A stretch of 32,353 bases of DNA from Patescibacteria group bacterium (lineage in GTDB: Bacteria > Patescibacteriota > Patescibacteriia > Magasanikbacterales > UBA922), in contig JAHJIX010000017.1 in the NCBI GenBank assembly GCA_018823045.1, positions 116,300-148,652 on the forward strand. The letters are read 5' to 3'. Shown here in pieces: positions 26,642 to 31,329 of the stretch (its first letter is position 1; the number at the start of each line of letters is the position of its first letter). The notes below the pieces were generated by a model, which was not told where the DNA came from, did no database searches, and worked only from the letters and a program-made list of their open reading frames with translations. Both the position numbers and the translations under genes were made by a program.

Positions 26642-26650
26642 AAACATGAA

Positions 26651-26749
26651 AGAACCACGTCATTGCGAGGAGGTACGACGAAGCAATCCCATTGTTTAGT
26701 GCATTGAAGTATGGGATTGCTTCGCTATCGCTCGCAATGACGTGATTCT
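26651..26749. repeat. Palindromic intergenic repeat (CGTCATTGCGAG type)
   Basis: CCACGTCATTGCGAGG...GAAGCAATCCCAT / ATGGGATTGCTTC...CTCGCAATGACGTG. Confidence 0.8.
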
Positions 26750-26781
26750 TTATAATACACACTACTTTATTTACAGAAAGC

Positions 26782-26816
26782 AAAAGACATACGTAGTAAT
26801 ACGTATGTCTTTTTTA
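26782..26816. terminator. Terminator between convergent radA (+) and the ncRNA gene (-)
   Basis: AAAGACATACGTAGTAATACGTATGTCTTTTTT on +; the minus strand has the same hairpin followed by TTTTGCTTTC. Confidence 0.75.
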
Positions 26817-27171
26817 TATATGTTGGACGATAAATAGAGTAAAACTCTATTACTGTATCCAAGAAGGTGAGCCTCTGGGAAAAAACGAGCCGGAGCCGGT
26901 TTAGGCCGGGGGTTCACCTTCATGCTTGTCGTGGATACAGAGATGTATATAATTGAAATCACGGTAATATGATTAAACTATACACATCTGTATATCCTCG
27001 TCTTGCCACGTGTTTTTTTACGTGGTCGTCTACTACAGAGAGATACATATTAGATTGCATGCATTTATAATACTCTACTATGTACTGTCTCTATATTCTG
27101 AACGCTTTTCCATCTAATTATGAGGATATCTACTGTGATTACTTTTCTTTCCAGTGTGCTTCAGAACACGA
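26785..27171 (-). ncRNA. Putative standalone structured ncRNA, ~390 nt, family not recognised
   Basis: Perfect promoter, no credible ORF, terminator, and multiple compatible helices: ATATCCTC/GAGGATAT, CCACGT/ACGTGG, AGATGTGTATAGTT/AATTATATACATCT, CTGTATCC/GGATACAG, GAAGGTGA/TCACCTTC, ATAGAG/CTCTAT. Confidence 0.65.
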
Positions 27172-27177
27172 CTCCGA

Positions 27178-27206
27178 ATTATATCACACAAAACACATCT
27201 TGTCAA
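27178..27206 (-). promoter_or_regulatory. Consensus sigma70 promoter of the ncRNA
   Basis: Minus: TTGACA-17 nt-TATAAT (both hexamers perfect). Confidence 0.85.
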
Positions 27207-27253: not shown

Positions 27254-27949
27254 TTACATTTGCAAACGCACAACACACAGTGGTGTTTGCTCACTACTTT
27301 GCCCTAAAGGGTTATCTTTAAATATAGCAGCTAATTCTTCTTTATTTGCCTGATTATTTGATACACCTAAGATATCTACCCCTAAATCATTGGCGTCTAT
27401 AATGACAATTTCATTCCCTATTTCTTTTTGAATACTTTTTGCGACTTTATGAGGAAACTTTGGCGCTAAAGTTGCATTTTTATTATATGGTGGAAGCGTA
27501 TAATCACAGGGCCCATCAATTGCGGCTATTTTTCTCCCTGCAATGCGATAAAACATTCCACGAATACCAAACGGCTTTGTTACTGCAGCAACAAGAGAAG
27601 CAAATAATATTCGAAACATACCCACTTCATCAAGTGCTAACTGCATCGTCCATGGACTCCCCAAACCAATACCATATGGTGATTTATAGACAAAACGAAC
27701 TAAAAATTTTGCTAATTTTGATGGCACAATATCAGCAATAGGAATTGACCTTCCTTGTGTAATAGCAACTACTCGCTCACTCATAAACAACATGTCCCCT
27801 TTTTGTAGATGCTCGACTGCATAGCTTTTTACCACATCAACAATATCATCTTTATCTGTAATAACATGTGTTTTTATTGGCCAACGTTCATAGGTTTTTC
27901 CTCCAACAACAATTGTTAATTCTTTATCTACATTTGGAGATAATTTCAT
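27254..27949 (-). CDS. CofE-like protein (coenzyme F420-0:L-glutamate ligase-like domain)
   Basis: YERWPIKTHVITDKDDIVDVVKSYAVEHLQKGDMLFMSERVVAITQGRSI resembles the CofE N-terminal region; IDANDLGVDILGVS. Confidence 0.6.
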   Translation of the reverse strand: MKLSPNVDKELTIVVGGKTYERWPIKTHVITDKDDIVDVVKSYAVEHLQKGDMLFMSERVVAITQGRSIPIADIVPSKLAKFLVRFVYKSPYGIGLGSPWTMQLALDEVGMFRILFASLVAAVTKPFGIRGMFYRIAGRKIAAIDGPCDYTLPPYNKNATLAPKFPHKVAKSIQKEIGNEIVIIDANDLGVDILGVSNNQANKEELAAIFKDNPLGQSSEQTPLCVVRLQM

Positions 27950-27958
27950 ATAAATTTA

Positions 27959-29917
27959 TTATTCAACAATAAGTGCGACTCCTTCATCTTCTGGAATAAC
28001 TTCTCCCTCAATAGGAGGCTCTGCAACACCCTCTTCAGGAATAACTTTTGCTTCTACACCCACGAGACAAGTCTCAGGAACTGCACGATACAAACTCTCA
28101 AATAGTGTTTCTTCTTTTTCTCCTGAAGGTAAAATACGACTATAGGTAAATGATGCTTCAGCTCCAGTGTATGCATGCTGACATTTCGTTTCTCCAGGAG
28201 GTAAATCTGTTGTTTCTCTATAAATTGTTGGGCCAGCCGGAATCCAACGATGAAGTGTTGGAGGTTCATACCATCCTTTTCTTCCATCATTTGTCCCCCA
28301 TGCAGTCAAAATCAAACGAGAAGTTGAGGCATCCATTTGTGCTTGAATCAACACATGGTTTCCTGTATCATTTTTAAAACGAAAATCTGGTAATGGATCA
28401 TAAATCGTTGCATCAGTCCCCGGCAAACCATTCGTTAGATCATTATAATAGCTCACCATAAGTCCATGTGGACGACGCATCGTAATTTCAAGCCCACTAT
28501 TCATCGCCATACGAAAAAGGGTTGTACTCATTTGACAAAGTCCTCCACCAATTTCAGCCTTCACTTCATCACCTTTAATAACTAACTCCGGTAGATATCC
28601 TCCAGCAATTGTATATGGTTTCGTATAGGCTACTGTTGAAAATTCTTCTCCTGGTGCCAATAAAATTCCATTAATCTTTCTGACGGCATTGGCAATATTA
28701 TTAATACGATTTGCAGGACTACCACGATAAATAGAAACACCCACTCCAAGTACTTCAGAAATTCCTCGATCATTTAATTCTCGCATTTTTACCAGTGGTT
28801 CTTCTTGTGTCGTTTGCAAATTAACGGTAGAAACAATTCCCTCTTCATGCCATGATCGTTGTAAAAATGTATATAATACATCTTCTGCTGTTTTTTCTAC
28901 ATTAACAGAAACACCTGGTCGTGATCCCTGAAATGACTCCACCTTTCCACTTTCTGCAACTTCAAATTTTGCATTCTGTGGTAACTTATTTACAGCTGGC
29001 ACAATATTTTCTTCAATATATGCTTGAAGTAATGGCATATCAAAGGTAAACGCAAGACCATTATCTTCAACATGACCAACCAACACCCAAGAAGCAAATA
29101 CTTGTGGCGTGATATCCCACGTACGCTGAATTTCTGTTTGTGGATCAACATAAGCGATAGTCAAATCTCCTTGCTCAATGACAAATGCAAGACGATCTTC
29201 AATTGTTTTTACATCTTCAGCTGTAATGGTTGGCTTCACTTCTTCATACACTAACTCAACACTCGGAATAGACAAACTCCCCCACGCAGCAAGTACATCA
29301 TCAATTACTGCAGCCGGCTTAAAGGTCATGCCTGTTTTCTCTTCACTAATTTCATAATATAATGGTGCTGTACTATGAATCTTTACTGAAGCGTTTTCTT
29401 CTGGTAATTCACTATTTTTTGTCTTTTCTTCAATTAACTCAATTAATTCTGCTCGCTGTACAGTAATATGGTTTAAACGTACACCTGGTTTTTGCATGCG
29501 TGTTTTTATCGCAGCCCAACCTGTTTGCAAATAATTAGATCCTTTTCCAAATAATACTAATCCATCAACATTTTTTGCTAAATCCATTTGTAAATAATCA
29601 ATCGTATAGTTTTCTGACACCTCTTGTACTGGTAAAATAATACTCTTATGCGCATCTTCTACCTGAAAGGTCAATTCAATTCCTGCATCAAGTAATTTTG
29701 TATATTGTTTTTGGAGCACATCGTGCAATTCATCTTTTGTCATGCCACCAATGGGTAAATTATTAATATTTACTCCCGGAAGCACCTGATCGTTTTGTGT
29801 ATACCCATAGACAGACATTCCACCCAATACGAGTAGAATGACAAAAATACTCGAGCCAAGTGCAATGAGTATTCTTTTCCATGAAAATGATATTAAATGT
29901 TCTTGTAAAAAAGACAT
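27959..29917 (-). CDS. VanW family protein with PG-binding-4-like domains
   Basis: N-terminal TM; PGVNINNLPIGGMTKDELHDVL; FSTVAYTKPYTIAGGYLPELVIKGDEVKAEIGGGLCQMSTTLFRMAMNSGLEITMRRPHGLMVSYY. Confidence 0.9.
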   Translation of the reverse strand: MSFLQEHLISFSWKRILIALGSSIFVILLVLGGMSVYGYTQNDQVLPGVNINNLPIGGMTKDELHDVLQKQYTKLLDAGIELTFQVEDAHKSIILPVQEVSENYTIDYLQMDLAKNVDGLVLFGKGSNYLQTGWAAIKTRMQKPGVRLNHITVQRAELIELIEEKTKNSELPEENASVKIHSTAPLYYEISEEKTGMTFKPAAVIDDVLAAWGSLSIPSVELVYEEVKPTITAEDVKTIEDRLAFVIEQGDLTIAYVDPQTEIQRTWDITPQVFASWVLVGHVEDNGLAFTFDMPLLQAYIEENIVPAVNKLPQNAKFEVAESGKVESFQGSRPGVSVNVEKTAEDVLYTFLQRSWHEEGIVSTVNLQTTQEEPLVKMRELNDRGISEVLGVGVSIYRGSPANRINNIANAVRKINGILLAPGEEFSTVAYTKPYTIAGGYLPELVIKGDEVKAEIGGGLCQMSTTLFRMAMNSGLEITMRRPHGLMVSYYNDLTNGLPGTDATIYDPLPDFRFKNDTGNHVLIQAQMDASTSRLILTAWGTNDGRKGWYEPPTLHRWIPAGPTIYRETTDLPPGETKCQHAYTGAEASFTYSRILPSGEKEETLFESLYRAVPETCLVGVEAKVIPEEGVAEPPIEGEVIPEDEGVALIVE

Positions 29918-30786: not shown

Positions 30787-31329
30787 CTATTCTTTCTTAT
30801 CTAATTCAATGACAGAATGATCATAATTAATCCAATTCTTTGCAGAAGAATATTTCCAATCTTCTGGGTTCTTTACATATCCTTTCTTTACTGGATTCAT
30901 GTAAATATATGTTGTTTTTGTGAGACAAAATGTATCTGAATAGATTAATTCTGGATAATTTTCTCTTTGCCATATTTGATTGGTATATCCTTTTTTTTTA
31001 TTATAGCTATTATTCAATAAATTTAAGATGTAGTTTCTATTATCCTTTTCTAATAATTTCCAGATTTCTCTTGTTGTATGTTTTTTAAAATCACTGATTA
31101 CTTGAGATAAGTTATTTGTTTTAGGAGTGGAAATAATTATATGCACATGATTGGTCATGATGACATATTCATACACTTTTAATCCTTTATTCTTTTTACA
31201 ATAGTTTAAACTATCTATGACAACCTTAAAATATTCCTCTTTTGTAAAAATATCTATCCATTCTATAACGGTCAATGTTATAAAATGGGGCATATTTTGA
31301 CTATTCTCATTTATACGCAATGTTGGCAT
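30787..31329 (-). CDS. REP-associated tyrosine transposase (Y1, IS200/TnpA_REP family)
   Basis: HFITLTVIEWIDIF, YVIMTNHVHIIIS (HUH motif), YIYMNPVKKGYVKNPEDWKYSSAKNW; RBS upstream; inverted REP hairpins on both sides. Confidence 0.92.
   Translation of the reverse strand: MPTLRINENSQNMPHFITLTVIEWIDIFTKEEYFKVVIDSLNYCKKNKGLKVYEYVIMTNHVHIIISTPKTNNLSQVISDFKKHTTREIWKLLEKDNRNYILNLLNNSYNKKKGYTNQIWQRENYPELIYSDTFCLTKTTYIYMNPVKKGYVKNPEDWKYSSAKNWINYDHSVIELDKKE

Follow-up and report, generated by a model that had tools for sequence, protein, structure and literature searches.

The minus strand of the window (the whole stretch of 32,353 nucleotides that was analysed) almost certainly carries an RNA gene with a promoter of its own, its expression being inferred since there are no transcript data. 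We are also confident, within the limits set by the coverage of the literature and of Rfam, that it represents a new RNA family running through the whole of GTDB class ABY1 of the Patescibacteria, to which we take the order of the window's genome to belong. The boldest reading, to which as a whole we give a probability of about 0.35, is an RNP RNA specific to this class, probably essential and lacking in other bacteria, with the closing stem serving in one order as a two-state switch that controls the presentation of a nearly invariant loop. The gene has the following features (positions in the window):

27201 to 27206, minus strand: -35 element TTGACA, without a change in 96 of 103 homologues
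27178 to 27183, minus strand: -10 element TATAAT with the TG of an extended -10 in front of it and a 17-bp spacer
27172, minus strand: predicted transcription start (TATAAT-N5-G; most homologues begin with GUY), inferred and unmapped
26998 to 27171, minus strand: order-specific 5' region, a AUAUCCUC/GAGGAUAU helix around two hairpins, differing in length among relatives
26933 to 26997, minus strand: hairpin A (GGAUAUACAGAUGUGUAUAGUU ... AAUUAUAUACAUCUCUGUAUCC), which uses the P1 strand CUGUAUCC in its lower part
26853 to 26940, minus strand: conserved core domain P1 to P5 (88 nt, about 90 bases), the part detected class-wide by model R1
26933 to 26940, minus strand: 5' strand of P1, CUGUAUCC, from covariation and folding
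26922 to 26932, minus strand: nearly invariant one-sided loop ACGACAAGCAU, from alignments
26887 to 26899, minus strand: apical P4/P5 hairpin CCGGCUCCGGCUC, with a conserved G.U pair and mostly a UNCG-type tetraloop
26861 to 26865, minus strand: opposite strand UUCUU, with the invariant U88 C89 U90 of alignment A3
26853 to 26860, minus strand: 3' strand of P1, GGAUACAG, from covariation and folding
26834 to 26850, minus strand: small 3' hairpin AUAGAG-UUUUA-CUCUAU, from folding
26782 to 26813, minus strand: terminator hairpin at the gene end, from folding

A preliminary description of this DNA had claimed a perfect consensus promoter on the minus strand, and this was found at 27206-27178 (TTGACA-N17-TATAAT, zero mismatches), the only such site in the window, where 0.64 sites with up to one mismatch are expected by chance. 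The transcript predicted from it is about 390 nt long (27172 to 26782), its last elements being a 14-bp hairpin and a short run of U residues, which places the terminator hairpin of that description at 26813-26782; this hairpin is symmetrical, and hence possibly shared with radA, which lies downstream and converges with the RNA gene. Folding of the minus-strand RNA gave -122.4 kcal/mol against -76.7 kcal/mol for shuffled sequences (z = -9.3), as would be expected of the structured RNA of about 390 nt that had been proposed, and the weaker result for the plus strand (z = -7.2) fits transcription from the minus strand, which had been proposed as well. The helices that had been listed by eye are present in the gene, the 14-bp helix among them as the upper part of an upstream hairpin. 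The absence of a credible open reading frame also held, and protein coding was rejected: an overlapping 63-aa frame is unconserved, with in-frame stops in 60 of 100 homologues, and the length of the domain is not kept modulo 3. As to the surroundings, vanW-like and F420-ligase-like proteins are encoded immediately upstream of the RNA (27254-29917), the upstream gene in the same direction matching the F420 ligase family only weakly. A REP-like palindrome (CATTGCGAGCGATAGCGAAGCAATCCC) with an imperfect inverted copy lies just past the RNA terminator (26647-26755), and a REP-associated tyrosine transposase (NF047646) is encoded 4 kb away (30787-31329).

Near-perfect promoters are found at nearly all copies of the gene in the window's order. 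Class-wide, the spacer is 17 in 96 and the -10 is TG-extended in 93 of 103 copies, most of which start with G-U-pyrimidine five bases past the -10 element. Within the order the usual place of the gene is between clpP and a vanW-like gene, the latter adjoining the RNA in most of the genomes, and the gene occurs in either orientation relative to both; elsewhere in the class the neighbouring genes differ. The near-perfect promoters and the variable orientation argue for an independent transcript. The frequent position between clpP and the vanW-like gene might also be expected of a cis-regulatory element in the leader or 3' UTR of one of these neighbours, but such an element is very improbable in view of the separate promoter and terminator, the occurrence of both orientations, the change of neighbours within the class and the convergent radA, all of which agree with the standalone transcript, rather than leader, that had been suggested earlier. 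The locus probably encodes a standalone, trans-acting structured RNA which is strongly transcribed, although transcription is inferred here. Upstream of the -35 element (27248-27215), in this gene and in many Magasanikbacteria copies, there is a palindrome of the GGCTTAAATAAGCC type, in many cases at the same distance, which has perfect arms in 15 of 45 copies compared with 15 of 400 background sequences, and a DnaA-box-like site (TTATCCACA) was seen upstream of the -35 element in 21/45 copies compared with 12/400. The GGCT..AGCC palindrome was not retained as a regulator site upstream of the promoter, as another copy in relative G028 is located just behind a gene and may be a terminator.

The core consists of P1 (8 bp), the loop ACGACAAGCAU opposite UU, P2 (10 bp), a short P3 and the apical P4/P5, and its covariation is strong. 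In an alignment of 45 distinct sequences of the order over the 88-nt domain, 18 of the 29 pairs are altered on both sides, and none of 500 shuffles attains the covariation observed, while in 69 diverse sequences from the class all eight P1 pairs show compensatory, two-sided changes, and the structure as a whole has 376 double-change cells versus 117 in shuffles. This covariation supports two of the helices that had been drawn by eye, CTGTATCC/GGATACAG, which corresponds to P1, and the stem GAAGGTGA/TCACCTTC. The loop behaves quite differently from the helices: A12, A14, A15, G16 and A18, together with U88, C89 and U90 on the facing side, do not vary among the 69 sequences, adjoining loop positions are 97-99% identical, and two G.U pairs are retained as G.U in 66/69 (columns 21-88) and 64/69 (columns 49-60), so that ACGACAAGCAU is near-constant across dozens of families. 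Such fixed loop sides and flanking G.U pairs next to variable helices are the pattern of a site recognised by a protein or through tertiary contacts. Variants of the core were also seen. Two tandem cores, separated by about 215 nt and probably transcribed together, are present at locus L131 of family f40 (G117:C2:276483-276784), and loci L010, L012 and L019 have extra tandem modules (CUGUAUCC-ACGAC-[GC hairpin]-GACGAG) 5' of the core, which suggests a partial duplication of its 5' strand; these modules are clear only in those few members and were not accepted as a general feature. A pairing of the 5'-end GUYGY with ACGAC of the loop was likewise noticed and set aside, as there is no compensation when the 5' end varies.

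Searches of related genomes found the RNA in close relatives and throughout the class, and they refine the preliminary description in that class-wide conservation is limited to the 3' core. At the DNA level the 3' part of the gene was found in most genomes of the same family, and an exact pattern search of the GTDB genomes returned 46 stretches, nearly all from Candidatus Magasanikbacteria, the remaining few being labelled only Parcubacteria, Patescibacteria, Paceibacter or 'bacterium'. Covariance model R1, built solely from aligned core sequences of the order (Magasanikbacteria-type), matched 322 of the 381 genomes of class ABY1 (about 85%), usually with one copy each; the absence of a match in the other 59 is probably for the most part due to gaps, divergence and strict filters, something which was not checked. 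In a phylum sample of 380 genomes R1 matched 32, of which 31 are ABY1, and the sole match outside the class (L176) lies in an apparent dnaB helicase gene and lacks the loop, and was therefore discarded as false. A virus or plasmid origin was rejected as well, since viral contigs, phages and plasmids gave no match.

With regard to known RNAs, no family of Rfam 15 (including raiA, ROOL, OLE and T-box) reached the gathering threshold in the gene or in the scanned relatives, nor in the window, and scans of Rfam at relaxed E-values gave no bacterial RNA worth considering. No description of this RNA was found in the open-access literature, although preprints and most subscription papers fell outside this coverage. 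An unusual form of one of the known housekeeping RNAs is hardly credible. For tmRNA, ARAGORN found nothing at the locus, there was no alpha_tmRNA, and the tmRNA of the genome is elsewhere (G000:C15:80642-81062), which is also true for RNase P RNA, without an Rfam match at the locus and with the genome's own copy at G000:C11:81637-82164. The SRP RNA deserves more attention: it was undetected in ABY1 (models RF00169 and RF01854 match 0/57 ABY1 genomes, and neither matches at the locus), so that a missing RNA is imaginable, and the bacterial small SRP RNA (RF00169) resembles the core in being a hairpin of about 100 nt that has an internal loop and whose apical stem is capped. However, the core has neither a match to that model nor, by inspection, the signature of SRP domain IV, and its hosts have no recognisable Ffh: this protein (TIGR00959) scored above cut-off in only 1 of the 380 phylum genomes and in no ABY1 genome, while 10 of 14 controls passed. 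SRP appears to have been lost as a whole across the phylum, well beyond ABY1, and since both SRP RNA and Ffh are missing, and Ffh almost phylum-wide where the new RNA is specific to ABY1, the SRP RNA reading was excluded. The raiA motif RNA (ModT), ROOL, GOLLD and OLE are similar in being conserved standalone bacterial RNAs from comparative genomics, restricted to clades and long of unclear function, but the ABY1 RNA matches none of their Rfam models, differs in size, structure and host range, and is, unlike these, usually single copy and near-universal in one class. The suggestion of an "unrecognised or very divergent housekeeping RNA" in the preliminary description thus stands in its first half, while there is no support for a divergent form of a known one; the underlying observation is confirmed and its interpretation supported.

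The core is a long hairpin with one near-invariant asymmetric internal loop and a capped apical stem. Most likely ACGACAAGCAU opposite UU, flanked by the conserved G.U pairs, docks a conserved protein or protein machine, the RNA then acting as the RNA component of a housekeeping RNP. While gene, core structure, distribution and promoter conservation are shown by the analysis, the partner and the expression are inferred, and we regard a protein-bound, trans-acting RNA with a docking loop as the best reading, at even odds. The invariant loop could instead serve base-pairing between RNAs or the tertiary fold. Base-pairing of the exposed ACGACAAGCAU loop with mRNAs or rRNA would make use of an invariant and formally unpaired stretch of 11 nt. 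The universal 23S segment CUUGUCG is complementary to seven of these bases (CGACAAG), and in relative G028 there is one perfect complement of all 11 nt at what may be a start codon; but a 7-base match to rRNA is expected by chance, complements near starts are not enriched in the complete genome of this relative (7 vs 4.7 in shuffled controls, with 105 of 500 at least as high as observed), and the facing strand with its G.U pairs is as invariant as the loop while not needed for pairing, which makes a base-pairing regulator quite unlikely. The G028 complement (CCATGCTTGTC, at G028:C1:71218) spans what may be the start codon of a protein that is exported or lies in the membrane; the chance expectation for perfect 11-nt complements near starts is about 0.03 by our own estimate.

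The strongest named rival to the docking loop is control of RNA polymerase by an ABY1 counterpart of 6S or Ms1, a rod-shaped RNA with a 5' bulge that binds the polymerase and tunes transcription. 6S RNA has a rod shape with a closing stem, a large 5' bulge and an apical stem with small loops (PMC8414754), its release occurs by refolding, and its central bubble has a -10-like element on the 3' side (PMC8876501). The ABY1 RNA has this shape and is moreover a near-universal single standalone gene with a very strong promoter and an alternative refolded state, in a genome without a recognisable 6S. As with 6S (RF00013), the actinobacterial Ms1 shares with it the standalone, rod-like hairpin in which a bulge separates the closing stem from the apical one, the near-universal presence in a clade, the lack of a protein product and the possibility of refolding. 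A defining feature of 6S fails, however: the 3' side of the bubble is only about 2 bases in all 69 sequences, too short for a -10-like element. There is also no match to the Rfam 6S covariance model and no evidence of RNA polymerase binding, and the bulge is near-invariant, whereas 6S bulges usually are far less so. Predicted lengths are 127-421 nt outside the order (median 184) and 179-558 nt within it, with a minimum of about 130 nt, compared with about 160-200 nt for 6S, although the ends are unmapped. On balance we consider a 6S-like role unlikely, without being able to dismiss it.

The closing stem is where the window's order departs from the rest of the class. Outside the order the stem extends below P1, with on average 6.4 of 8 flanking pairs compared with 2.7 in the order, and in some copies this extended stem, followed by U residues, doubles as terminator. 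The extension is absent in the window's order, where CUGUAUCC can pair with a GGAUAYAG further upstream to close a long hairpin at its base; as the base of hairpin A and P1 share this strand, the two are mutually exclusive, and this second pairing was absent from the helices of the preliminary description. It can be formed by 45 of 48 sequences of the order, versus 127 of 240 controls made by shuffling and 22 of 55 sequences from other ABY1. In unconstrained folds the upstream pairing was favoured in 35/44 sequences of the order, mostly by 1-8 kcal/mol, and P1 in 6/44, whereas P1 is part of the minimum-energy fold in 48/55 of the other ABY1 copies; the energy gaps are small and come from protein-free folding. 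Position 2 of the strand changes jointly with both partners (U-A to C-G), although the register for this test was taken from the fold itself, which biases it towards the upstream pairing. The alternative pairing is supported only by folding and this limited covariation, which suggests that the order carries a two-state RNA that has been conserved; any function of the two states is inferred, and a functional switch in the window's order remains tentative, somewhat short of even odds. In the proposed mechanism the extended closing stem of most ABY1, possibly doubling as terminator, would hold the loop in place, while in the window's order the loop would be presented when the 5' strand of P1 pairs with its 3' strand, and P1 would be opened when the same strand pairs with the upstream hairpin.

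To our knowledge there are very few housekeeping RNAs conserved over a whole bacterial class, and the ABY1 hosts are ultra-small bacteria that have small genomes of about 1 Mb and are mostly uncultivated. The retention of a single-copy RNA in about 85% of the sampled genomes points to an indispensable function, and the ABY1 RNA is probably a housekeeping RNA of which the job is not yet known. A covariance model is now available for it, the 11-nt loop is a defined target for mutation, and the RNA is a clear bait for the protein partner; it could show by what means a large branch of the bacterial tree regulates transcription or translation.
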